From IMG/VR virus record IMGVR_UViG_3300038456_000326, positions 1 to 25,325 of that record: DNA of 25,325 nt; one strand, given 5' to 3'. The position numbers and the translations under genes are program-made. This document shows, piece by piece, positions 3,301 through 24,492 of the stretch (within the stretch, counting starts at the first letter, position 1; each line of letters begins with the position of its first letter). The notes under the pieces are model-generated. The model worked only from the letters and a program-made list of their open reading frames with translations. It had not been told where the DNA came from and searched no databases. This stretch comes from a virus.

Positions 3301-5350
3301 CCTGGTTCGCCGCGTTGCTCATGGGCACGCTGTACGCGTTGCCTGCGAACGCGCTCCCGATCCACGCGATCAAACAGGCCCACATGCCAATGGGATTCCC
3401 GGTGAACGCCACGATCTCGAAGTCGCCGATGGTGGAACCGCTGAAGCTGAAGAACGAACTGGGCGGCAGCGTGATCGTGATTGTCTGCGTGTTGAGTGGC
3501 GCCTCAAGGCCGGCGGTGAGCCCCATGGCGCGCAAGAGCATATTCACGCAGATCCAGAACGGGTTGATAAGGCCGGCGACCACGGAGCGGTTGCCGTTCT
3601 GGTCCCACACAAAACCGGAGAGCCCGTAGTCGAGCGGGATCGTCATCTGGTGCTGGTCCGGAGTGCTCGGCTGGATGGCGCTCGACTTCATGATGCGAAG
3701 CTCGCAGAGCGCGACGCCCGCCGCGTAGTTGTTCGGCTCCCATGTCTGCGGCGTGCCCTGGCCAAGCGAGAAGTAGTCCGTCGATGGATTTGCCGGATCG
3801 TTGCCGAGCACCTGCCGAAGTCCCATGCCGGGCTGGTTCTTCGTGATGGTCAAATTGCCATTGACCTGGAAGCCCTGCCACGTGTAGCCATCAACCATCG
3901 GCGCAACCACATAGCGGTAGCCGTCGGCGTTCATGACGATCTGCGACGGCGTAAACCCGCCCAGCGGTCCCGCGCCGAGGATGCCCAGCGAGTCGGCGTA
4001 GGTGGACTCATCGCGGTACGCGACCATCAAAGCGTTCGCCATGAATGCGTAGAGCGCGTTACCGCCCGAGTTGCACCAGATTTCCGGCAGCGCCAAGCCC
4101 CAGATGTATTCCGTGATGATCGAGGTGGCGGTGACCTTGTTGCGCCCGAAGCCGAGGAAACCGGTGGAGTCGTCCTTGATGATCACGCCCTGCGGGTCTG
4201 CCTGCTGGCCACCGAAGTACGGAGACATGCCGTGCACCTGACAGCCGTTCGCCGACTCCAGATAGAAGTCGCAACTGTTCGGGTCGCCGCCCGCCGCCGT
4301 GACTGCCGCAGCGCTCGCGCCCTTGGTCGCCCATAAGCAGTAGACGCCATCGTTGTATGTCTTCCAGCACTGCCGGCTGGCCTGCCGCTCCGGGTACTGA
4401 TTCATGATCTGGAAGAAGCCGTCGGAGCAGACCACCGGGAAGTTCGGTGTGCCGTCGCTCGTAAAGTTCTGGATGACGCCCTTCCAGATTTGAATCAGGA
4501 TGCCGGAGTTGACGTGGAACGCGCAGAAGTCGATCTCCGCGTATTTGAGATCGGTGTCGTTGGCGAGGTCCGTCATCGTGCGGTCGGCGTTGCCGAAGTT
4601 GAATCGCACGCTGTCGGAGGATCCCTTGATGTCCTGGGAGATCAGCGTGTCGGAGCCGGGCTCGCCGATCCCGGTGATACGCGGCAGGTAGGGTTGCGAA
4701 CTGCCCGCCCAGCCGAGCGCGGCGGCCACCGCGCCGGCAGCGCCATCGGTGAGCGTCACGCGCCGGTCCGAAAGCCAGATGTCCGGCACGGTGGCCTCTT
4801 GCACGCGGATGTGAATGAGCGGAACGATCTCCTGGACTTCGGAAAGCAGCGCCGCGGAGAGCGCGGTCGAGGGGAATCGCAGGCAGGGCGCGGCTACCAC
4901 CGAGTAAGTCGGTGCGGCAGTCGGATCGACGACTTCGACCAGATTAAAGCCAACCTGACAAGCGTTGCGCAGGTAGTTGAAGGAGATCGGCGTCTCCTCG
5001 AAGGTCACGAGCACCGACATGGTGGTTCCACCGGGGTTGGGAACGTTGTAGGTGAATGCCTCCCATGGGCCCTGCATCGACTCCCAAAAGGATCTGAGCT
5101 CGCGCGCCTCGGTCCAGCCGAGATTGCCGCGCGAGAACCGGAACTTACGAGGCCCGATGCCGCTATAGAAGCGCTGCTCCTGCTTGGCGTCCATGCTGCC
5201 GAAGCGATGGACAACCACCGGGCGCTCGACGGCGAACCCGTACGAAGACAGTTCCGTACTAAGAGGAAAGACTTGCGTGCCAGAGAGGCCGGCGCCACCC
5301 GTCGAGAGTACCGTCGTCGGTACGGAAATCCGCCCGATTAGATCTGCCAT
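332..5350 (-). CDS. Composite tail-tip / host-specificity protein (gpL- and gpJ-like regions)
   Basis: A 1672-residue protein that probably forms the tail tip and contacts the host. I chose the ATG giving MADLIGRISV because it overlaps the stop of the upstream gene (TGATG). A longer in-frame start adds 15 unlikely residues. Residues about 25-142 resemble the preceding 138-aa minor tail protein, with a shared C-terminal NLVEV/QLVEV ending. Residues about 235-390 look like the DUF2163/lambda gpL class. Cysteines 328, 338, 360 and 370 are followed by YFGG, which matches the spacing idea of the gpL iron-sulfur cysteines. Roughly 850-1200 resembles gpJ-like tail-hub regions, and the rest is beta-rich, Ser/Thr/Gly-rich and repeat-like, as in fibronectin or fibre-like stalks. 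One chain would therefore cover jobs that lambda splits among several proteins. The domain calls are by eye. The tail-tip role is well supported by size, position and content. Confidence 0.82.
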   Translation of the reverse strand: MADLIGRISVPTTVLSTGGAGLSGTQVFPLSTELSSYGFAVERPVVVHRFGSMDAKQEQRFYSGIGPRKFRFSRGNLGWTEARELRSFWESMQGPWEAFTYNVPNPGGTTMSVLVTFEETPISFNYLRNACQVGFNLVEVVDPTAAPTYSVVAAPCLRFPSTALSAALLSEVQEIVPLIHIRVQEATVPDIWLSDRRVTLTDGAAGAVAAALGWAGSSQPYLPRITGIGEPGSDTLISQDIKGSSDSVRFNFGNADRTMTDLANDTDLKYAEIDFCAFHVNSGILIQIWKGVIQNFTSDGTPNFPVVCSDGFFQIMNQYPERQASRQCWKTYNDGVYCLWATKGASAAAVTAAGGDPNSCDFYLESANGCQVHGMSPYFGGQQADPQGVIIKDDSTGFLGFGRNKVTATSIITEYIWGLALPEIWCNSGGNALYAFMANALMVAYRDESTYADSLGILGAGPLGGFTPSQIVMNADGYRYVVAPMVDGYTWQGFQVNGNLTITKNQPGMGLRQVLGNDPANPSTDYFSLGQGTPQTWEPNNYAAGVALCELRIMKSSAIQPSTPDQHQMTIPLDYGLSGFVWDQNGNRSVVAGLINPFWICVNMLLRAMGLTAGLEAPLNTQTITITLPPSSFFSFSGSTIGDFEIVAFTGNPIGMWACLIAWIGSAFAGNAYSVPMSNAANQAAVLLAQNLYNWQSLAPRYQTAANQAIFAANFTTVWQAYVQACVVIAGPNPTGNAEKALIASVEDRMTLGMTLTVGSITFTGDGKYDWFAYYLTPITGSATPGDSMSYPSVSAEQLSAFVLSSLIVGDGSGTAEIAAAQVPAILGTGDEIQFQFQGSVSSQKPFRDWLTEVLNCCLGFYAWEFGKLKLGCRINASALDAYTISSILFQSLKQTPIVAAFEHLIISYADVAYQYQTNTADYVDKSHAAYYGRAGSPLTSQMHSVGISTLSQALRIAATRTREECGGVTPMEWRNARNVSWQTTLLGLNNEVGQVISMTHPDIPGARGTCNVTGAVATWASGDVWTYAGTAVGDTELVNKAILIGGIEVVITAVASDGSTITTNPAPPSGTGLVFHVITMCFRVQRWSLKKDWSVQLDGQTVTASMYDLDVGPKPVDVAPAPPSPIFYAIPAGPVWAPYQVQANASDALFPGEWTFDSDQVYVPLQDGGQQAYLVITGKLPVNEFSATGAGAPGVGLVGQSSTGGSLPAMVTLYVSICAIDSSGLPSVPSNILVIGTSVTGTDSFTLANITWPAVTGLASFVLFVASQDDLICEQLTGALTPTGNGTTYSPSSIAFSGPLTRSTWAMPSPYVAKVRVKAKLLVHSGVIGASVASVSTNTIVSNDMVDTSATPFNATGRVLSLIGRPNASTPYASFNITNHVPATGTLTLDRDPTGIVLVGDAFAIRFKADNLNSMPASVTTVNDNGCKNSLNSYGGMGVVAGVGVEIGNLIRIIANTGRGQPPSTITGNTATGLTFQPALTMDDTSVWIVEGSTWAFQADSTSIDNASPLTPVSLSVPTGNFIKQPMLIGGFTVDVNGNESPDGDAPVREDWIYGAVGTNASPGATLQVAGTLAIGSNQAPPLQLNATRTPNEVVALVGAAPTGAGLTININVGGVLWMNLTIPAGDLSVQATTAQLTAAGSIAGSASITMDITAVGTTVPGADLSVFIYM

Positions 5351-5766
5351 CACGCCACCTCGACCAGTTGCAGGCCCTGGACGTTGGTCCGGCACAGGTC
5401 GCTCAACTGCGACCAGTTGCCGCGAACCACGACCGTCACGCGGCCTTGCGTGTTGTTGCCGGTGGCGTCATAGTTGCTGCCGATCTGCTGGCCGGCGAGC
5501 ACGTCGAACGGGTTGTAGAAAAGGAACGGCGTCATACCGAAGTTCTGCGAAGTGAGGAAGGCGTAAAGGGTCGAGAGCAGCGTCGCGGTGAGACGCATGT
5601 TTGGCCGGAAAATCCGGCGCGACGTCTGGGCCAGTTGCGCCCGCTGGATTGTGCCGTCGCGATATTGGTTCTGCAGTTGCGCGTACTCACGCGTCTCCGC
5701 GAACGCGGTGCACAGCGAAAATGGCATCACGCCGTTCGGTACGGCTGCGAGGATATTTCCTGGCAT
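5350..5766 (-). CDS. Minor tail protein (gpM / distal-tail-like)
   Basis: A 138-residue protein between the tape measure and the tail-tip protein, the usual place for a minor tail or distal-tail component that joins the tube to the tip. It has no membrane segment. The central part (TATLLSTLYAFLTSQNFGMT) and the end (NVQGLQLVEVA) have the short beta-rich look of lambda gpM or DUF2460-type proteins. The N-terminal domain of the next protein ends almost the same way (ACQVGFNLVEV), which suggests the two are paralogous domains. Its stop overlaps the ATG of the tail-tip gene by one base, so translation of the two is likely coupled. The ribosome binding site in front of it is weak. Family assignment is by position and general resemblance. 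Confidence 0.65.
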   Translation of the reverse strand: MPGNILAAVPNGVMPFSLCTAFAETREYAQLQNQYRDGTIQRAQLAQTSRRIFRPNMRLTATLLSTLYAFLTSQNFGMTPFLFYNPFDVLAGQQIGSNYDATGNNTQGRVTVVVRGNWSQLSDLCRTNVQGLQLVEVA

Positions 5767-5804
5767 GGGGTTCGAAGACTCAATGGCGGGGGGCGGTCAC
5801 GATA

Positions 5805-8800
5805 TCAAGCCACCATCAGACCCGGCACCTGGAGGTTGGCTGACTGCTGCGTGCGTCCGTAGCTGGCATTCTGCGCCGCCAAAGACTGGTCGGCCACGAA
5901 ATCCGCGGTGATCGGTTGCCCGTTGATGTTGAGCGACACGTACGTGCTGCCGCCCGCCGTCGTGTTCGGACCCGGCGTCATGGGGAACGTCGTCCCGCCG
6001 ATGCCGCCCAGCGTGGGGAGATCCGATGCGTACGAGTGCCACGCGTTGTTCTGAAAGCTCGCCTGCTGGTAGAGATTGCCGCCCTGCTCGGCCAAGCTGC
6101 CGGCGTACGGCGTCGATGCAGAGAGAGGCATCTTTTGGCCGGTGGCTTCGGAGTAGAGCATCACCAGTTGGCGCACTTTCGGCGACCGCACGGCCACGGC
6201 GATGTCGTTGCCGAACTCGGACTGCGCGATGCCCACGACTTGCTTGATGGTGCCGCTGTTCTGGGGAATATCGACACCGTAAATCTGTTTGATGTCGTTG
6301 TGCGCCTTAACCGTGGGCGACTCGATCCCGGCCAGCTTTTCACCGACACCGATCCCGAAGCCAGCGATAGCGCCGATACCGGCACCGAGCACCGCACCCA
6401 TCGGCCCGCCCACCTGCATACCGATTCCCGCGCCCAGGAGGCCGCCGCCTACCGTGCCCATGCCGACGCCGCCCCAGCTTCCCATCTGCTTTCCCATCAG
6501 GCCGCTGGTCGCGAGCATCATTCCGGCGGCTGTCGCGGCGGGCGACGTGGCAACAGCCAAGCCACCGCTCGCGGCTTGGCCGGCGAACGTCGTCTGATCG
6601 ATGGGGAGACCGTGGTACGCCTTGGTGTTCCAGACGGAACTCTCAAGGCCCGACAATCCTGGGAAGCCCTGCTTACCGCCGCTCAGACCGGGCGCCAACA
6701 TCTGGAAGAGCGGACTCTGATGGTTTAGCGGCAAGTTCGCCAGCGCGGACATGCTGGAGCCGGCAGCCGGTGCGCCGCCGGCAGGCGCGCCGCCCCCAAT
6801 GCCGAGCGCCTGTGCGACGCGGTCCGGGCTCATAGGCAGGCCGGGATACGTCGGAACCGCCTCAGGTGCGGCAGCAGCGACCCCGCCGCCACCGCTGATA
6901 TTGACCGCAGCCATCCGCGCCGGCACCGAGATGCTTGGTATGGAGACGCCCGCCAAGCCGGCGATCCCTGCGGGCGCGGCCACCGCCGGAGCGGTCATCC
7001 CCATCGCGCCGGCAAGCACCGCGGTGAGCGCCGCCACGTGCGCGGTATTCAGAATCGTCGCGGTGGTGTTTTGGTCCGTCGATATCTTTACCGGGTCGGC
7101 GGGCTTGCTGCCGCCGAAGATCCCTTTAAAAATGCTGGCCAGCCCGCCGCTCCCGTCCGCGCCGTAGATCGCCGGATGCAGGATGTTGGCGGTCATCGAC
7201 GCCATGCCTTCCGCCACGGGCTTAATCACCGCCTGGTGAACGGTACTCGCGAGTTCCTTCGGGAACTTGGTGGGGTGCATAAGCAGCGTGTTCCACAGGC
7301 CCTCGCTTTCCTTTTTCAGCGAGTCCATCTGCTGCTTCTGAATTTCAAGCTCCTTGATCGTCGCCTCTTCCTGCGCGTCGGCGACTTCTTTATTGAGGAC
7401 CTTCATCGCCCTGGCGCCCGCAACCAACTGCTCGGAGCCGGTGGTCTCTTTCAGAATCCGTTCCGCTTCCACCTCGGCGAGTTGCTTGGCGAGGTCGATC
7501 CGAATCTGATAGGTCTCGCGGACGGCATCCATGCCTTCAGCACCGCTCAAACCCACCATCTTCTGGGCGTGGCTGGCTTCGCGGGTGAGCAGATCCTTCT
7601 GCGATTCGAGGTTGATGGAAGCAACTTGGTCATGGGCGCGGAACCAGTCCTCCCATTCCTTCATCTGCTCCTTGGTCGGCCCCATGCCCTCGGTCATCTT
7701 CAGAGAACGCTTGGCCTGATCCGCTGCTGCGTACTCTTCGAATTTCTGCCAGTCCAAATCGAACTTCGACTTCTCCGCGGTGCGGAGCTTTCCGGCCTGC
7801 TCATCGGCCGCCTTGCGGATCGCGGCGATCTCCGACTCCGACGCTTTCACTTGCACGGCCTGCTTTAGAAGCTGGTCCCGCTGATAGAAGATCTTGCCGA
7901 TCGCGTCGAGCTCGGCTTCATCGCCCTTCTTCTCGAACTCTGCCGCCTGGCGGCGAAACTCCTTGAGTGCTTCCCCGCCCTTAGCGGTCGCGTCCAATGC
8001 CGCCTTGCGCCGCGCTTCGTTGGCTTCGGCGCCCTGGAGTTGCTGGCCGAGATCCTGCGCCTGTGCTTTCGTCAACGGCTTGTCCGGCTCGAACAGTTCC
8101 TTCTGCAACCGCTCGACATCCTTCTTGGCATCGGCGTAGGCCTTCTCCATGCCCTGATGGGTGCCGAAGAACCGCGCGCGCAGCCGATCCGTCTCCTCTT
8201 TGCCGGCGTGCAGATCCTTCCGCCTGGTCGATGCCTCGGCATCGTCCAGCATCTTCTGCAACTGCTGAATCTGCCCCTGGATTTCGGTCGCCTTTTGCGC
8301 CTTGGCTTCCTCATCCTTCGTGGGCGCCACCGCCTGGAGCAAACCGAAATCGCCCACCAGCTTTTGCTGCTGGTCGCGCAGTGCCGCGATTTGTTGCAAC
8401 GTGGCATCGCGGTTCTTCATGATGTCCGGCGCGCGACGGTCCATATCGGCCATCTCCTGCCGGTGTGCCGCGATTGACATCTTGGCGCCAGGGCCGCCCG
8501 CCGCCCGGATGTCGGCGGCGTCCTGCATCGCCTGTTCCTCTTCGCGGCGCTGCCGCTCCTCATCCCCGGCAGGCGAGATGTTGTTGAGGAACCAGTCGAC
8601 TCCCTTGCCGACCCACGTCACGGTGACGACTAGCCCCTCTTTGAATTTGCGGACCAGAGCGTCCCACTTGGTTTCGAGCACGGTCACTTCGCGCTGGTAT
8701 TCGGTGAATCGCCGAATGTCCTCCTCGGTCGGTCCGAAGCCCTCGTCATGGGCGATGCGCAGGTTCTCGTTGAGTTCCGTCATGAACGGAATTGCTTCCA

Positions 8801-10489: not shown

Positions 10490-11098
10490 TCAAGGGTCGG
10501 GCCGAACCAGCGCGTCGTACTCAGATTGAAGTTTCATCAGACGGGTTTCCAAAGAAGTGATGAGCTTTTCCGGAAATGGTTCGCCCACGTCGATCGGGTT
10601 CAGATCATAGGTCTTTGTTGAACGCAGTGCATCGTAAACGGCAACGTGCCTGACGTATGCGGCGATTTCGCGAAGGAGTTCCGCGTCCGGTTGAGCAAAA
10701 TGGATATTTGCCTCCATCAGCGACACGATCTCCTCATGGTTCTTGATTAAATGGTTCAACTCGATCTCGCGTCCGACTCGGTCAGGCAGGGCGGTTGTGT
10801 GGTCCGACAATTGGGGAACAATCTTCCAGATCGCGGAGTCTTTTGCGAAGCGAAAGTGAATGGGCCAGTAGAACTGCGATAGCTGCTTTTCCTTGAACTC
10901 GATTTGCCGCGTGAGTTTGAGTCTGTCGAGTTCGTTTTTCAAGACTACCTTGTCTCGTTCCAGGGCAGACATGCGCTGTTGATCGGTCTTGAATTGTTCG
11001 AGGCGTCTGGAGATCCAATACCCAATCAGGAGCACAATGATGGCAAGAGCCCCTTTGTCGAGTAGTGTAAGAAGTAGTTTTTGCTGAAACTCTGTCAC
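10490..11098 (-). CDS. Membrane-anchored coiled-coil protein, cargo gene
   Basis: A 202-residue protein starting with GTG in a GTGA overlap with the upstream gene, so the two are likely coupled. Residues about 12-29 form one transmembrane helix (KGALAIIVLLIGYWISRR, basic residues after it, so the C-terminal part is probably cytoplasmic). Residues about 30-75 form a charged coiled coil. A conserved-looking aromatic block follows (QFYWPIHFRFAKDSAIW), then a helical domain to the end. This anchor, coil and soluble domain layout resembles small bacterial membrane proteins of unknown function, some of which occur near defence genes. That is inference from memory, not a match I could test. The DNA looks less GC-rich than the flanking tail genes, which fits a later insertion. 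It is not a recognised structural protein. A superinfection-exclusion or defence role is only a hypothesis. Confidence 0.72.
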   Translation of the reverse strand: MTEFQQKLLLTLLDKGALAIIVLLIGYWISRRLEQFKTDQQRMSALERDKVVLKNELDRLKLTRQIEFKEKQLSQFYWPIHFRFAKDSAIWKIVPQLSDHTTALPDRVGREIELNHLIKNHEEIVSLMEANIHFAQPDAELLREIAAYVRHVAVYDALRSTKTYDLNPIDVGEPFPEKLITSLETRLMKLQSEYDALVRPDP

Positions 11099-11388
11099 GA
11101 CGTACCTCCGTCCGCGGCGTTTGGCGCCGGAGCCCGTTCGGGTTCCTTAGGCCTCACCATCTCCCTCAAATGATAACGGAATTGCGCAAATTGGATGGAT
11201 GACAGAACCAGACGGTGCAGTGACGGGTGCCATGCTGCGTCGAAGTCGCGCTGGGCGAGATTGACGCTTTGACGAGCAATGTTAATGTTCCCGATCTCCT
11301 CGAACAGTTGGGGCCAGTTTCCGAGGCGACGGCCGCATATGGTCCTTCCGACGACGCGGCTCTCCGCACATCTAGCCTCCGTTGGCAT
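11095..11388 (-). CDS. Small unknown protein coupled to membrane protein gene
   Basis: A protein of about 97 residues. I chose the ATG (MPTEARCAES); a TTG seven codons upstream is also possible, and neither has a clear ribosome binding site. The middle (NINIARQSVNLAQRDFDAAW, then HPSLHRLVLSSIQFAQFRYH) looks like a real helical protein, and the end is a Pro/Glu/Ala-rich tail. Its TGA stop overlaps the GTG start of the membrane protein gene, so the two probably work together or need balanced amounts. No family was recognised, and no signal peptide or membrane helix is visible. The N-terminal 15 residues are of low credibility and the true start could lie further in. Confidence 0.5.
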   Translation of the reverse strand: MPTEARCAESRVVGRTICGRRLGNWPQLFEEIGNINIARQSVNLAQRDFDAAWHPSLHRLVLSSIQFAQFRYHLREMVRPKEPERAPAPNAADGGTS

Positions 11389-11605
11389 AGGAACGCCTGC
11401 GAAGCGCAAACCGGTTCCGGTTCCCCTAATTCCGGTATGGGATTGCGCGCGTTGCCCAACTGCGGCGGCACATCTACACCAAGTTGCTCTAATGACTGGT
11501 CGGGGGGCGGGTGGGGCTGTAAAATATCCCTGCCACCTCGACCGTCACGAAAGGATCTCACCGGTGAACCCGAGATCGGACCGCCTTGGGCTCGCTGAAC
11601 TCAAC

Positions 11606-12853
11606 TCATTCCACCTTCCACCAAATCCCTGTCCCCTGGGTATCGCGTCGCATTAAGTAATTGTGCCTTGGGACCAATTCGCCTGAAATATTCACTTTTC
11701 GCCCGCAGCTGGCCTTGAACTTGTATTTGGTCTTGAACCCGGGCAGATCCAAGCCGACAAATGACTCCGTCTCGTGTGACGCCGACCAGCTGAAGGTGAA
11801 CTTTCTAGGGCCATTCGATTGATCTTGACTCAATGGAATCGAAATGTCCTCGATCCGCCCCTGTGCCTCCAAGGGCGAGAGGTGATCGCGTAATTCAATA
11901 GGCTGCACGGGTCTGGAGGGGCAAACAACAGTGACCGCCTCCGCCCTCGGCACTTCCACACGCCAGAAACTTGCGCCGATAGCCTTTCCGTCCCGGACCG
12001 GTTGCAGCAGCCTCGCATCCAGTTTAAGAGGCAGAAACACCAGTGTCCCGGTATGCCAACAACTGCGATATGGCACCTCGACGCTAACACCCAGCGTGCT
12101 CGAATCGCCCATCCCTACTCCAGCAAGGGATATCGTCCATCCATGCGTATTCCCTGACTCGAGGGTCTCAGCGTAGTCCACAACACACCCTTCCACATCC
12201 GGAGAGGAAAGCCAAAATAAAGGAATTTCGCATGGGACGCTTCGCACCTCCTCGCACCGATATTTGAAGAACCCCAGCAACCCTTGTATCTGCACCTTGG
12301 CGTTCTGAAACCTGCCGAGCCAATCAACGAAACCGGCATCGTCGGCCGGACGGTCACCCAAGTCCTGCGACACCTTATCTCGCGTTTTTCGCCAGGCCTC
12401 CGCATATTCCCTGTCGAAGCCAGCGTCCGACATTCCCTGCTCAAACACATCTGAGTTCAGCACCGCTAGGTCTAGCCATTCACTCCTTCGCAGAGGCGTC
12501 ACCCGCAACTCCGGAACGTACGCAGTAAGGTGACTGGAGTACTGGTGCATTTTCTCGTCCGCAGCAATTTCCTGGAACAGCGTCTCCAGGACGGCAAGGC
12601 ATCGGTTCTCGACTTCTGGCAGCCGTTCACCGGATTCGTCGCGAAGCGCTTTAAGGCCGTCATAAAACGCAATCTCATCAGAGAGAGAATCCTTAGGTAG
12701 AGGCGGAAAGCAAACCCTCTGCTTGATCATTTCCGCTAAATCGTCTTGCCGAAGCCAGCCGTTCTTCGACGCACCCCGCAGTTGCATCTCGTAGCTATTG
12801 AGGATTGACTCAAGGGCTACTTTGGACCGAGACTTACCTCCAAGTTTATCCAC
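11606..12853 (-). CDS. Unknown 415-aa protein, cargo gene
   Basis: A protein of about 415 residues with no family I recognise. The frame stays open to an ATG 54 codons further up, but I chose GTG (VDKLGGKSRSKVALES) because AAGGAGG lies six bases before it. The upstream extension is very basic and has no ribosome binding site. The N-terminal half is helical and charged (residues about 1-200, with DDLAEMIKQRVCFPPLP near 35-50). The C-terminal half is beta-rich with several aromatic residues and ends GIWWKVE. There is no membrane helix or signal peptide, so it is probably cytoplasmic. It stands alone between the zinc-ribbon tail gene and the two coupled small genes, about 200 bases from the next gene. 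Base composition looks less GC-rich than the tail genes. It may be a phage accessory (moron) gene. Function unknown. Confidence 0.72.
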   Translation of the reverse strand: MDKLGGKSRSKVALESILNSYEMQLRGASKNGWLRQDDLAEMIKQRVCFPPLPKDSLSDEIAFYDGLKALRDESGERLPEVENRCLAVLETLFQEIAADEKMHQYSSHLTAYVPELRVTPLRRSEWLDLAVLNSDVFEQGMSDAGFDREYAEAWRKTRDKVSQDLGDRPADDAGFVDWLGRFQNAKVQIQGLLGFFKYRCEEVRSVPCEIPLFWLSSPDVEGCVVDYAETLESGNTHGWTISLAGVGMGDSSTLGVSVEVPYRSCWHTGTLVFLPLKLDARLLQPVRDGKAIGASFWRVEVPRAEAVTVVCPSRPVQPIELRDHLSPLEAQGRIEDISIPLSQDQSNGPRKFTFSWSASHETESFVGLDLPGFKTKYKFKASCGRKVNISGELVPRHNYLMRRDTQGTGIWWKVE

Positions 12854-13281
12854 GTGTTCCTCCTTGCAGAACCGGGGTCTTCGCTGGGGAAAACGAAAAT
12901 GGGTCTTCCTTTCCCACTGGGATTTCCGTTTTGGCTCCAGGCTGCATACGATCTTATCACTGGCCGCCAGTTTTCGATCCCCCGAAATAAAGGGCTCTGA
13001 CAAATTGCTCGGCATGCCTCAAAGATGCAACCTCGATTCTCCGGGAGCTATTGATCCTGCTTTAATCGCTCCCACTCCGCGGAAGTGGCCGGAAAGGCCC
13101 GTGAGATCCCCTTTGGGGCGAGCGTCGGTTGACAGGCTTTTCGGAGATTCCTCTGAACCCATGTTTTACGGGCCCCAAGTCGCGCGCCGGGAAGCTTCGA
13201 TCACTCCCGTGACACCCCTCAAATTGGTGCAAACGGTGTTGGCCACGAGCACGTGACGTCGCTGCCCCCCACTACTTCGCA
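12854..13281. other. Non-coding spacer before the cargo gene
   Basis: About 430 bases with no convincing gene on either strand. It separates the tail assembly genes from the cargo gene and is unusually long for this compact operon. On the minus strand it probably holds the 5' leader and any private promoter of the 415-aa gene; I saw no convincing -35/-10 pair. It contains a short palindromic patch (CCCCTTTGGGG) near 13,108, similar to one (CCCCATTTGGGG) near 10,390 on the other side of the cargo segment. The similarity is too short to prove insertion ends. Confidence 0.5.
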
Positions 13282-14355: not shown

Positions 14356-15387
14356 CTATTGGGCGATACCGCCCTGCGGCGTCGTTATCGACATAGTCAC
14401 CAAGCCGTTTACGGGATCGTACAACTGGACACCGGTCACCTGAAGGGTGGCGATGCCATCGGTGTTCGACAATTCGACGACGTTGAAGCCCATCGCCTGG
14501 ATCAGCATCGTGAACGCGTTGTTGGCGTCGCGGGTGAACGTGATGGTGGCGGTGCCGACCGTCTGAGCGATCAGCGCCGCATACTCAGCGGACCCGGTCT
14601 GCACTCGCACGACGAACTGCACCGCGAAAGTGCGGTCGCCCCACTCGAAGCGTCCCTGGATCTGGTAGCCGTCCTGAAGCCCGGAGCCGGGGAAGAAGCC
14701 CGGCCGGAAATTATTCTCCCAGGACGCATCGAGCGACACGAATTGCTTGCCACTGCCGCCTGTCAGATAGTTGATGCCGTTGATGGTCAACGCGCTGACC
14801 ATGCCGGCGTTGAATTCGTGCAGCGCCGTCGCAGCCGGCAGGGTGATGGTGCTGGGCGAAACGTACTGCCCGGTGGTCACACACTCGACCGAGAGCATCG
14901 CGCTGGCGCGGCCGGGAGAATTCTTGATGGCCAGCTTCCAGCCCTTGACCGCGCAGCCCACCAGGAGTTCATCAAGCAGCGATGACCCGCCAGGCCGGAT
15001 CTGTTGGACGTAGGAGAAGTACGGCAACTCAAGCCCGGTCGCGTTGGTCGCGCCGAGCGCCGGCACGATGGTGTAAGTGTACGGTGCAGTGGTGCCGACG
15101 ACCGTGACGTTGCCCAGCGAAAACGCGAGCGCCCAAGCCAGGAACTCCGACGATGCGTACTTCGAGATCTCGAAGGATGGCATGTTGTAGTGCGACTTGA
15201 AAAGCTGCGTCGGAAACTCATGGCCCTTGCCGACTTCAGCCCGGTCGTCCTCGTTCACCGGAACCTTCGCCCAGGGCTTTGTATTGAGGTTCGTCAACCG
15301 CCAAATCTTGGCGACGAGCGATGGGGTGCCGATGGCGGCCTGTTTGCCGAAGCCCCAACCCTCAACCAGTTCATTGATATTCGCCAT
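14356..15387 (-). CDS. Major tail tube protein
   Basis: A 343-residue protein that very likely polymerises into the tail tube. It begins MANINELVEGWGFGKQAAIG, typical of tail tube proteins of this group, where the first segment describes a sample-like beta-sandwich start (GxGKQxAxGT). The rest is rich in beta-strand-forming Thr, Val, Gly and aromatic residues, and the C-terminal third looks like a second, related beta domain (VSLDASWENNFRPGFFPGSG). No membrane helix or signal peptide is present. The gene lies between the tail terminator and chaperone genes, as expected, and starts two bases after the stop of the small upstream gene. There is no nearby sheath gene, so the tail is probably non-contractile. 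Family length is usually 200-350 residues, which fits. Confidence 0.78.
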   Translation of the reverse strand: MANINELVEGWGFGKQAAIGTPSLVAKIWRLTNLNTKPWAKVPVNEDDRAEVGKGHEFPTQLFKSHYNMPSFEISKYASSEFLAWALAFSLGNVTVVGTTAPYTYTIVPALGATNATGLELPYFSYVQQIRPGGSSLLDELLVGCAVKGWKLAIKNSPGRASAMLSVECVTTGQYVSPSTITLPAATALHEFNAGMVSALTINGINYLTGGSGKQFVSLDASWENNFRPGFFPGSGLQDGYQIQGRFEWGDRTFAVQFVVRVQTGSAEYAALIAQTVGTATITFTRDANNAFTMLIQAMGFNVVELSNTDGIATLQVTGVQLYDPVNGLVTMSITTPQGGIAQ

Positions 15388-15389
15388 CG

Positions 15390-15662
15390 CTATTTTGCCT
15401 CCTTCGTTTCCGTGGTTTCCGCCGTCGGCGCGGCCGGCGCAGGCACCTGATGCCAGCCCGCCACCATCAGTGGCTTATCCCGAATTCCGGATAAGCCTCT
15501 TTCTTCCGAATCCCGGATTATTCCGGGCTGAGCCGTAACCGTAGGCGCCGGCACTTGATGCCAGCCCTGCGACATTAGCGGCGACAAAGACTCCGTTGTG
15601 GCTTCGACTTCCCTGATCTCGTCGCCTTGAGGGGACGCCAAGAACACCTTATTAATGGCCAT
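15390..15662 (-). CDS. Small phage protein with internal 36-aa repeat (intact copy)
   Basis: A 90-residue protein starting at ATG (MAINKVFLASPQGDEIREVE) nine bases after AGGAGG. No family recognised. It contains two copies of a PLMxxGWHQVPAP motif spaced exactly 36 residues apart. The underlying DNA repeats match at 22 of 24 bases, so the gene grew by an internal duplication. The linker between them is coded by palindromic DNA. The C-terminus is Ala/Pro/Thr/Glu-rich and probably disordered. The broken gene about 1 kb upstream encodes a clear paralog (MQNVETVHLQSPEGEIREVE). Most of this gene's 5' half is part of the perfect inverted repeat. It lies directly before the tail tube gene, so a small tail or head-tail accessory role is likely, but this is inference. 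Confidence 0.7.
   Translation of the reverse strand: MAINKVFLASPQGDEIREVEATTESLSPLMSQGWHQVPAPTVTAQPGIIRDSEERGLSGIRDKPLMVAGWHQVPAPAAPTAETTETKEAK
15472..15497. repeat. Long near-perfect palindrome inside a coding region
   Basis: A 26-bp inverted repeat with arms GGCTTATCC and GGATAAGCC around a centre holding GAATTC. Twelve of thirteen base pairs match. It lies within the small repeat protein gene, next to the left end of the 183-bp inverted repeat. A second palindrome (CCCGGA, four-base loop, TCCGGG) lies 15 bases further right at 15512-15527 and again at 16510-16525 in the other repeat copy. They may be remnants of small palindromic insertions or a recombination hot spot. Confidence 0.75.
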
Positions 15663-15681
15663 TTTGTTTACCTCCTCTGAA
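15499..15681. repeat. 183-bp perfect inverted repeat, left copy
   Basis: Read on the minus strand, this stretch is identical over all 183 bases to 16356-16538 on the plus strand; I compared them base by base. It holds the ribosome binding site, the start codon and about the first 54 codons of the small repeat protein gene. The identity stops within one base of the palindrome described nearby. The two copies face each other and enclose 674 bases. Confidence 0.95.
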
Positions 15682-15886
15682 ATGTATCGATTGTGGAATC
15701 CCATCCATTCCGGGAACACTCGCTTCTGTTGCGAGCCTTTGCAGATGCCCAAGCCTTCCGCAGTTGGCACTTTCGGAATAATCCTGCCAACCTTCTCTTG
15801 TCAGCGAGAAAGGGCTGATAAAGAAGAAATGATCGAAAACTACTTTTGTGCAGAACACGTGCTCTCACGCCTTTCACAATGGCCCC
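15682..15886. other. Inserted DNA before the recombinase fragment
   Basis: About 200 bases between the left repeat copy and the recombinase fragment. No gene is convincing. Two small hairpins are visible: GGAAT ... ATTCC at about 15697-15713, and CTCGC ... GCGAG at about 15727-15743. The motif CGGAATAATCC, also present in both inverted-repeat copies, occurs near 15775. This may be the original upstream region of the recombinase gene. Confidence 0.5.
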
Positions 15887-16369
15887 ATGGCTCCGTACCT
15901 GCCGGGCCTCATCCGGGCCCTGGAAGAGCAGCACTTCCGATGGCGCGTTATTCGCCGGAGCGTCCGCACGGCAGACGCGCTGGGCCAATGGCTCAAGGAA
16001 CAAGGCGTTCCCCTTGTGGAGGCGAATGGAGCTCACGCCAAGGCATTTGTAATTCAACGTTCCCGTACTCCGTATGGTCGCCTCGCAGCATCTGGTGTGC
16101 CTCGGATTGTTCGGGTTCTGCAAGGACAGGGAATCCTGAACGCGCCGGAGGCGCGCACGGAAGCGGATCGCTGGCTCCAGCGCTTCGATGAACACCTTTC
16201 ACGCGTGCACGGCCTCTGCCCGGATGGTCGTGGCAACTACCTCCGTTATGCCCGCCGGTTCTTGGCATCGCGCCAAACTCCGCTTGGCGCCCACGAGCGT
16301 TGGCCGCTAAGCGAAGTTCCGATAAAAGTCCGATCACAATCCAAACCCACAGGAGTTCAGAGGAGGTAA
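15887..16369 (+). pseudogene. Tyrosine recombinase N-terminal fragment, truncated
   Basis: A 160-residue frame on the strand opposite to all neighbours. The start used is MAPYLPGLIRALEEQHF; another ATG lies 13 codons upstream. Residues about 20-75 (TADALGQWLKEQGVPLVEAN ... GVPRIVRVLQGQGIL) and especially about 95-125 (LQRFDEHLSRVHGLCPDGRG, NYLRYARRFL) match the look of the SAM-like DNA-binding N-terminal domain of tyrosine recombinases from transposon-type integrases. The catalytic domain with R-H-R-Y residues is entirely missing: the frame ends as it enters the right copy of the inverted repeat. It is therefore a remnant and cannot recombine DNA by itself. It marks a past mobile-element event in the tail operon. 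The family call is by eye and fairly good for the last 35 residues. Confidence 0.68.
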
Positions 16370-16538
16370 ACAAAATGGCCATTAATAAGGTGTTCTTGGC
16401 GTCCCCTCAAGGCGACGAGATCAGGGAAGTCGAAGCCACAACGGAGTCTTTGTCGCCGCTAATGTCGCAGGGCTGGCATCAAGTGCCGGCGCCTACGGTT
16501 ACGGCTCAGCCCGGAATAATCCGGGATTCGGAAGAAAG
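16356..16538. repeat. 183-bp perfect inverted repeat, right copy
   Basis: This is the plus-strand copy of the repeat, identical to the reverse complement of 15499-15681. It carries a duplicate of the ribosome binding site and 5' half of the small repeat protein gene in the wrong orientation for the operon. Its outer end lies inside the broken paralogous gene, and its inner end cuts off the recombinase fragment. Because the left copy continues into an intact gene, this right copy is probably the secondary, inserted one. Confidence 0.95.
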
Positions 16539-16602
16539 CGGTGTGAGTGTCGTGGTGGTCCCTTCGACCTCCCGGATTTCGCCTTCCGGCGATTGCAGGT
16601 GA
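16375..16602 (+). pseudogene. Inverted partial duplicate of the small repeat protein gene
   Basis: The duplicate begins with the same AGGAGG site and ATG as the intact gene and encodes the same first 54-55 residues (MAINKVFLASPQGDEIREVE onward). At the end of the inverted repeat it runs into the antisense of the broken paralog and stops after about 20 unrelated residues (SGVSVVVVPSTSRISPSGDCR is the approximate tail). It is on the opposite strand to the operon, so it would be made only if transcription came from the recombinase side. I treat it as a by-product of the duplication and not as a selected gene. Confidence 0.7.
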
Positions 16603-16622
16603 ACCGTTTCTACGTTCTGCAT
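16506..16622 (-). pseudogene. Truncated paralog of the small repeat protein
   Basis: A 38-codon frame with a good ribosome binding site (GAGGA, five bases before ATG), 30 bases after the stop of the tail-terminator-like gene, so it was a proper operon member. It starts MQNVETVHLQSPEGEIREVE and continues GTTTTLTPL, closely parallel to MAINKVFLASPQGDEIREVE and ATTESLSPL of the intact gene. At that point it hits the inverted repeat. The remaining residues (SSESRIIPG) come from antisense repeat DNA and end at a stop. The break therefore happened inside a once longer gene. The pair shows that two tandem paralogs existed before the rearrangement. Confidence 0.75.
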
Positions 16623-16652: not shown

Positions 16653-17150
16653 TTATGGGTTATAAGATTCGATCAGCCGCGCCGCGACCTCGAAGTATTC
16701 GAACGTGGCACCGTCCGCGCTGATCACGATAGTGTTGCGCCTGGCTGACGGCAGGTAGAAGTCCATCGGCTCGCAACCGGGATCGACCTGGATGTGCAGC
16801 ATCTTAAGCGTGCTGCCCTCCGGGATGTCATTGACGATCCAGTTGAACAGATCCTCGTAGCCGATGCTGCCCGTCTCCGGAGCGCGGAGGTAGAGCGCAA
16901 AGTCATGAACGAACACGAGGGCATTGCCCAGCCTGCCCGGCGCCGTGCCGTGCCACACGACCATGATCGATCCCGGCGGCATTCCGAGAACGGCCAGACG
17001 AACGTTCGCCTGTGTGGGTTGGCCGAAGACCGTCATGTTCTCCGAGTAGAACTGAATCGAACTGGCGTTGCCACCCAAGGCTTCCATCAGATTGGGCAAA
17101 GCCTGAAGCGCGGTCACCCACTCGGCCAGAATGGTTTTGGGATTGATCAT
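16653..17150 (-). CDS. Putative tail terminator / head-tail completion protein
   Basis: A 165-residue soluble protein (MINPKTILAEWVTALQALPN) with mixed alpha/beta character. Its ATG overlaps the stop of the head-tail joining gene (ATGA), which points to coupled translation. It sits after the head-tail joining gene and before the tail tube gene, the position of the tail terminator (gpU class) that caps the tube and lets it dock to the head. Size fits that class (about 130-170 residues). Visible features are a helical start, a beta-rich centre (NVRLAVLGMPPGSIMVVWHG) and a C-terminal helix (FEYFEVAARLIESYNP). Sequence similarity to a named family could not be judged by eye, so the role is from gene order. 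Confidence 0.62.
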   Translation of the reverse strand: MINPKTILAEWVTALQALPNLMEALGGNASSIQFYSENMTVFGQPTQANVRLAVLGMPPGSIMVVWHGTAPGRLGNALVFVHDFALYLRAPETGSIGYEDLFNWIVNDIPEGSTLKMLHIQVDPGCEPMDFYLPSARRNTIVISADGATFEYFEVAARLIESYNP

Positions 17151-23879: not shown

Positions 23880-24027
23880 GTGAGAACTCCGTCGTTCGCC
23901 TTATATTCGGGCCGCATATCTTTTTTTCCGAAAGTCCGCAGATTCTGCTTGCTGTCCGGGGCGAGAAGAGTGATGAATCGTGGTGCGCACAGACGCGCAA
24001 GAGATTGAAGAAAAAGGACTAACACCA

Positions 24028-24492
24028 ATGAAAACCAACGAAGCCACCACCGCCACCGAAACCACCGAAACCGCCGCCGTTGCGGAACAGGGCGCGCACG
24101 TCGCGCCGGAGAAGGCCCCCTCGAAGAAGACTGCCAGCCCGAAGAAGGGCGCGCCCAAGAGCCAGAAAAAGGCCAAGGGCGGCAAAGCCAAGGCCGCCGC
24201 GCCGAAGACGCAAGCCAAGGTCGCGCCGAAGACGGAAGCCAAGGCCAGCAAGAAGGCCGCCAAGCCCGCACAGGCCAAATCCACCGCCCCGCGCGAGGGG
24301 ACCAAGACCGCCCAGGTGGTCGCCCTGCTCCAGCGCAAGAACGGCGCCACGCTGGCCGAGATCATGGACAAGATGGGTTGGCAGAAGCACACCGTCCGCG
24401 GGTTCATGGCCGGCGCGATGAAAAAGGCCGGCTACACCGTCGAATCCTTCAAGTCCGACAAGGGCGACCGCACTTACCGCATCAACGCGTAG
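24028..24492 (+). CDS. DUF3489-like winged-helix protein with H1-like tail
   Basis: A 154-residue protein and the only convincing intact plus-strand gene. The ATG (MKTNEATTATETTETAAVAE) lies nine bases after AAGGA. Residues about 1-30 are Thr/Glu-rich, and 28-88 are very rich in Lys, Ala and Pro (KKAKGGKAKAAAPKTQAKVA), like a histone-H1 tail. Residues about 89-154 form a winged-helix-like domain of the DUF3489 type (TKTAQVVALLQRKNGATLAE, MGWQKHTVRGFMAGAMKKAG, then GDRTYRI). Such a protein would bind DNA in the cytoplasm, perhaps as a compacting or regulatory factor. It is transcribed away from the head genes and ends at a strong terminator, so it is an independent unit. Family call is by the C-terminal motif and is fairly firm. 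Confidence 0.85.
   Translation: MKTNEATTATETTETAAVAEQGAHVAPEKAPSKKTASPKKGAPKSQKKAKGGKAKAAAPKTQAKVAPKTEAKASKKAAKPAQAKSTAPREGTKTAQVVALLQRKNGATLAEIMDKMGWQKHTVRGFMAGAMKKAGYTVESFKSDKGDRTYRINA

Follow-up and report, generated by a model that had tools for sequence, protein, structure and literature searches.

Integrative islands of the tRNA, dusA and comM types restore their own target gene. Those of the dusA type are the subject of PMC4482086. RIT elements are recognised by three adjacent, overlapping genes (ritA, ritB and ritC), terminal inverted repeats (TIRs) with half-sites, a palindrome beside one terminal repeat, a length of about 3.5 kb, and intact catalytic residues. An inverted repeat of 28-9 bp with an overlapping palindrome has been mentioned for them (PMC3414803), and their terminal repeats have elsewhere been given as 34 bp (PMC10214605); in the 2012 survey, three prophage proteins but none from phages belonged to the RitA-C families (PMC3414803, Table 1). 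Here we describe a locus in a phage tail operon with the ends and a recombinase fragment of such an element, in which both terminal repeats carry a copy of the interrupted gene. The window, i.e., the whole stretch of DNA that was analysed (25,325 bases), is IMG/VR record IMGVR_UViG_3300038456_000326, the sole record for this genome.

The tail operon of the window is encoded on the minus strand, and the genes on either side of the locus were assigned as tail-terminator-like and tail-tube-like from position and synteny (Table 1), neither being named by any family model searched; the same searches on the window named the portal, a head/protease protein, a Phage_attach head-tail protein, and the tape measure. 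A preliminary description of this DNA had placed a perfect 183-bp inverted repeat between these two genes, and the order of terminator and tube around it is backed by synteny in 114 relatives. The repeat itself and its exact limits were likewise confirmed: the two arms are inverted, identical at 183/183 bases, and separated by 674 bp. No other inverted repeat longer than 26 nt was detected across the window, so a chance origin of the 183-bp repeat is excluded. Elsewhere in the window (10490-13015), two minus-strand ORFs of 202 and 469 aa, located between conserved tail genes and without a DNA match in near relatives, are probable cargo genes.

Table 1. Coordinates of the gene G locus in the window (strand "." where none applies).
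Feature	Position	Strand	Basis or remark
Tail-tube-like gene	14356-15387	-	position and synteny
Native gene G, 3' part: LMVAGWHQVPAPAAPTAETTETKEAK, then stop	15390-15470	-	homology to gene G of relatives
90-codon fusion ORF: gene G copy, element end PGIIRDSEERGLSGIRDKP, native 3' part	15390-15662	-	open frame
Whole insertion	15471-16538	.	1,068 bp = 28 + 183 + 674 + 183; defective RIT-derived element
20-bp palindrome TTATCCCGAATTCCGGATAA, one end only	15475-15494	.	9/10 pairs; core of a 26-bp palindrome, 15472-15497
Left TIR, 183 bp	15499-15681	+	identical to right TIR; spacings 6 and 17 as in RITs
Half-site TTCTTCCGA of left TIR	15501-15509
Half-site TTATTCCGG of left TIR	15518-15526		followed by gene G copy, minus strand, outward
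Gene G copy, codons 1-45: MAINKVFLASPQGDEIREVEATTESLSPLMSQGWHQVPAPTVTAQ	15528-15662	-	GGAGG before start; translation and relatives; L151 alike
Subterminal region before ritA	15682-15828	+	DNA alignment with L151
Inverted half-site CGGAATAATCC	15774-15784		in the region before ritA; common to L151
ritA fragment, N-terminal part only	15829-16355	+	alignments with L151 RitA and plasmid RitA
Right TIR, 183 bp, inverted copy without palindrome	16356-16538	-	gene G copy outward on plus strand
Second gene G copy, antisense to operon	16375-16509	+	identical to first copy
Native gene G, 5' part: MQNVETVHLQSPEGEIREVEGTTTTLTP	16539-16622	-	homology to gene G of relatives
Tail-terminator-like gene	16653-17150	-	position and synteny

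In the relatives, a single small gene of about 55 aa, which we call gene G, lies between terminator and tube; its products share the pattern V.L.SP.GE..EVE.T...L.PLM..GWHQVPAP, and no model in Pfam, PHROGs or NCBIfam names it. The slot between terminator and tube measures 167-232 bp in 113 of the 114 relatives with both neighbours, and 1,269 bp in the window, where the native gene G is split between the codons P and L (MQNVETVHLQSPEGEIREVEGTTTTLTP / LMVAGWHQVPAPAAPTAETTETKEAK). Deleting 15471-16538 restores gene G in frame with zero extra bases, and in a near relative (L049) the gene is uninterrupted. Except for a 28-bp block at the left end, the arms extend outward to the limits of this insertion. 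The junctions carry no target-site duplication beyond one ambiguous base; together with the lack of a transposase frame, this led us to reject a DDE insertion sequence. The only outlier in slot length among the 114 relatives (L118, IMGVR_UViG_3300033405_000781; 842 bp) contains a different insert, of about 640 bp (3357-3996), with gene G intact on one side and the tail tube on the other. Within it are a fragment from the C-terminal part of a tyrosine recombinase (PF00589), with RitA as its closest likeness, and an inverted repeat of 17 bp duplicating native sequence beside the tube start; the insert is possibly a second remnant at the terminator-tube slot.

The end structure of RITs is partly known from the papers cited above, and a spacing rule was derived in the present analysis by comparing 16 plasmid RIT loci at their ends. 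Of these, 13 (including L132 and L137, whose palindromes have 8/10 pairs) show at one end a 20-bp palindrome, then 6 bp, a 9-bp half-site and, 17 bp on, a second half-site, with a mirrored terminal repeat at the opposite end. The insertion in the window has the same layout, with the palindrome TTATCCCGAATTCCGGATAA beside one terminal repeat, 6 bp from the first half-site, the half-sites TTCTTCCGA and TTATTCCGG 17 bp apart, and a mirror of 28/28 positions at the other end, whereas no palindrome with a mirrored terminal repeat was found in 1.11 Mb of control loci. In GTDB, the exact palindrome TTATCCCGAATTCCGGATAA was present in one Desulfosporosinus contig only, with no recombinase among the ORFs listed for it; in Desulfosporosinus sp. 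I2 (L125:6010-6069) it forms the centre of a near-perfect palindrome of roughly 58 bp. An unrelated phage (L045, IMGVR_UViG_3300043775_002731; 3996-6032) has at least five copies of a palindrome, TTATCCGGAATTCCGGATAA, in the gaps between small genes; these intergenic copies have no terminal repeats and were set aside as a different kind of repeat.

The recombinase fragment noticed earlier between the arms turned out to be RitA-like: the 674-bp centre contains a fragment that resembles the RitA of recombinase trios on plasmids and lies on the plus strand, antisense to the operon. Its frame starts at 15829, is shifted by one extra base near 15862, and is then open to 16355, where it breaks off (16355/16356) ahead of the catalytic domain. 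No model in Pfam, PHROGs or NCBIfam names the fragment, and a GTDB scan using it gave no match; in a phage database neither the locus, searched as DNA, nor the RitA fragment had a match, and a full RitA gave partial matches only. Alignment with the complete relative described below shows the loss of ritB, ritC and the far subterminal region. With 1,068 bp and its catalytic domain deleted, the insertion departs from RITs in length and in catalytic residues, and because it holds only a 5' fragment of ritA instead of three overlapping genes, it was filed as a RIT-derived remnant and not as a RIT. Since ritA is cut and frameshifted and ritB and ritC are lost, the element is unable to move by itself; as a defective derivative it could be mobilised, if at all, only by a related RIT.

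A pattern scan of viral contigs for RIT-type ends recovered a relative (L151, IMGVR_UViG_3300045902_000776) that qualifies as a complete RIT: it has terminal repeats and full ritA, ritB and ritC genes with R-H...Y motifs. Over 139 aa, RitA of L151 and the fragment in the window are 66% identical (E 5e-53). The element is lodged between a tail terminator (35% identical to that of the window) and a tail tube (41%), in a phage that is only distantly related, terminator, tube and portal being 35-41% identical. It splits the gene G of its own phage at the same codon (...ATLVP / LMVRGW) and in the same orientation as in the window, and two insertions at one codon of gene G suggest, as far as sequences can, that these RITs are mobile. 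The independent insertion also bears on the origin of the contig itself, which the preliminary description had thought might be an assembly artefact. A chimera generated by assembly or amplification would be compatible with a single metagenomic record that comes without reads and with arms that are 100% identical and exceed the usual short-read length; it is, however, scarcely credible, because the two flanks join exactly into a single conserved gene, the boundaries coincide with a palindrome and half-sites at the expected spacing, and the insertion recurs at the identical codon in an independent contig. We dismissed it because the empty site is exact and L151 has a twin insertion.

Each arm in the window comprises about 29 bp at its outer end, followed by a ribosome-binding site and 45 codons of gene G that read outward and span the entire conserved core (MAINKVFLASPQGDEIREVEATTESLSPLMSQGWHQVPAPTVTAQ). 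In a weak tree of short sequences, the copy is closest to gene G from phages like L005 and L010, and the interrupted native gene to that from L049. None of the relatives examined has two copies of gene G, by which tandem gene G paralogues were ruled out as the origin of the arms. The terminal repeats of L151 are 178 nt long and 90% alike, and each encodes an outward-reading gene G product of 56 aa that ends at the TAA of a half-site (GCGGAATAA), so that, by sequence, gene G copies are present in all four TIRs of the two elements. The two copies in L151 differ by 10.5 silent versus 6.5 amino-acid changes (pS 0.25, pN 0.051; Fisher p 0.002), a signal of protein conservation that, with 17 changes in one pair, is suggestive only. 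In the window the first half-site reads TTCTTCC instead of TTATTCC as in L151; the stop of the copy is thereby lost, and the left copy continues on the operon strand through the element end into the native 3' part, from 15662 to 15390, as an open fusion frame.

We consider it probable (about 0.7) that the element in the window descends, by internal deletion, from a RIT lineage with gene G as its target, and that the copy in the TIR replaces the broken gene; the lineage is known from two elements, those of the window and L151. A RIT-type tyrosine-recombinase element would have inserted site-specifically at one codon of a siphophage gene G, and the TIRs of its lineage, of about 180 bp, would each combine a recombinase-binding end with an outward-facing copy of the gene. 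The operon transcript would read through the inserted element, and the tube-side copy would be translated and function in place of the native gene G, terminating in L151 at the stop that the half-site supplies and continuing in the window, for want of that stop, in frame into the native C-terminal part. Maintenance of the far-end, antisense copy is best put down to recombination between the terminal repeats, a process that would likewise keep the arms 100% identical, and the short form in the window would have arisen by internal deletion. What speaks against repair is that the fusion product of the window has 90 aa versus the usual 55 or so and that the far-end copy, being antisense to the operon, allows no rescue in the present orientation. 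The locus might instead be a decaying RIT remnant whose TIRs took up a fragment of a phage gene by accident, the copies being useless to phage and element alike. A truncated, frameshifted ritA and the absence of ritB and ritC would suit such decay, and identity between the terminal repeats of other RITs extends over 26-89 nt, so that end sequences can evidently homogenise without a function; we nevertheless regard this explanation as unlikely, because gene position, frame and direction agree in the complete element of L151, the copies run from the start signal to the end of the conserved core, and those of L151 differ mainly at silent sites.

The preliminary description had also proposed that recombination between the arms could flip the 674-bp centre; as an invertible DNA switch, this would alter expression of the tail operon. 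Perfect arms of 183 bp do allow homologous recombination, and their length makes the orientation of the centre uncertain in a short-read assembly, which is unable to fix it. A switch is very improbable all the same, since the recombinase fragment lacks its catalytic domain, the complete element of L151 is found in the same orientation, and the tube-facing copy, being the same in either orientation of the centre, would be unaffected by flipping; a better account of the repeat is that its arms are TIRs, bearing gene copies, of a mobile element. That the transcript can fold into a 183-bp hairpin, as had been suggested, agrees with the minimum-energy fold, in which both arms pair; in the operon RNA, such a predicted hairpin could mask the start signal of the gene G copy or draw RNase III.

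Five further complete RITs were found in IMG/VR viral contigs (L143, L144, L145, L149 and L150), and all five interrupt a DUF3489-type gene (Pfam run on L150 only) at one codon, W[QL] /.H[ST][VI]RG. It thus seems that RIT sublineages each have one codon of a conserved gene as their target. The terminal repeats of these five contain no gene copy, and a gene-bearing repeat is therefore peculiar to the gene G lineage in our sample. The RIT of L143 sits in a phage related to that of the window, and the DUF3489 gene of the window (23980-24492, plus strand) is intact. A subgroup of RITs with TATCTACCC ends, on Aromatoleum and Cupriavidus plasmids (L042 and L128), appears to adjoin tyrosine recombinase genes at conserved R-H motif codons, which suggests that integrase genes are the target of this subgroup.

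Insertions into compact structural operons of phages are usually expected to be lethal, and the survival of a mobile element at such a site would be explained by a repair copy in each of its terminal repeats. We give even odds to the broader proposal that a RIT lineage has specialised on one codon of gene G, with its TIRs serving as twin spare copies, that it is nearly harmless and moves gene G alleles between distant phages, and that degraded elements may persist because the TIR copy is the sole working gene of the phage. The movement and target choice of RITs have so far had no formal tests, and the gene G element offers a target specified to the codon, ends of defined structure, and an outcome that can be selected for.

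Like the target-restoring islands, the element would supply what its insertion removes, so that the host loses little; those islands, however, carry a short segment of identity at one end, whereas here a whole, divergent copy is present in both TIRs. The element, which is small and transposon-like, falls outside that group because it has neither a homologous integrase nor island genes. In SE and GInt elements, which have been compared with RITs, there are also several tyrosine recombinases acting together, but these elements differ in a fourth gene (ginD/srap) and large cargo (PMC10214605, PMC5385486). With the RITs themselves the window shares RitA homology, paired half-sites in the TIRs and a one-sided palindrome (PMC3414803; PMC10214605). 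RITs are about 3.4 kb long, versus 1,068 bp in the window without ritB, ritC and the catalytic domain of ritA, and while their TIRs usually comprise 26-89 nt and no gene copy, those of the gene G lineage extend over about 180 bp and carry a copy of the target gene.
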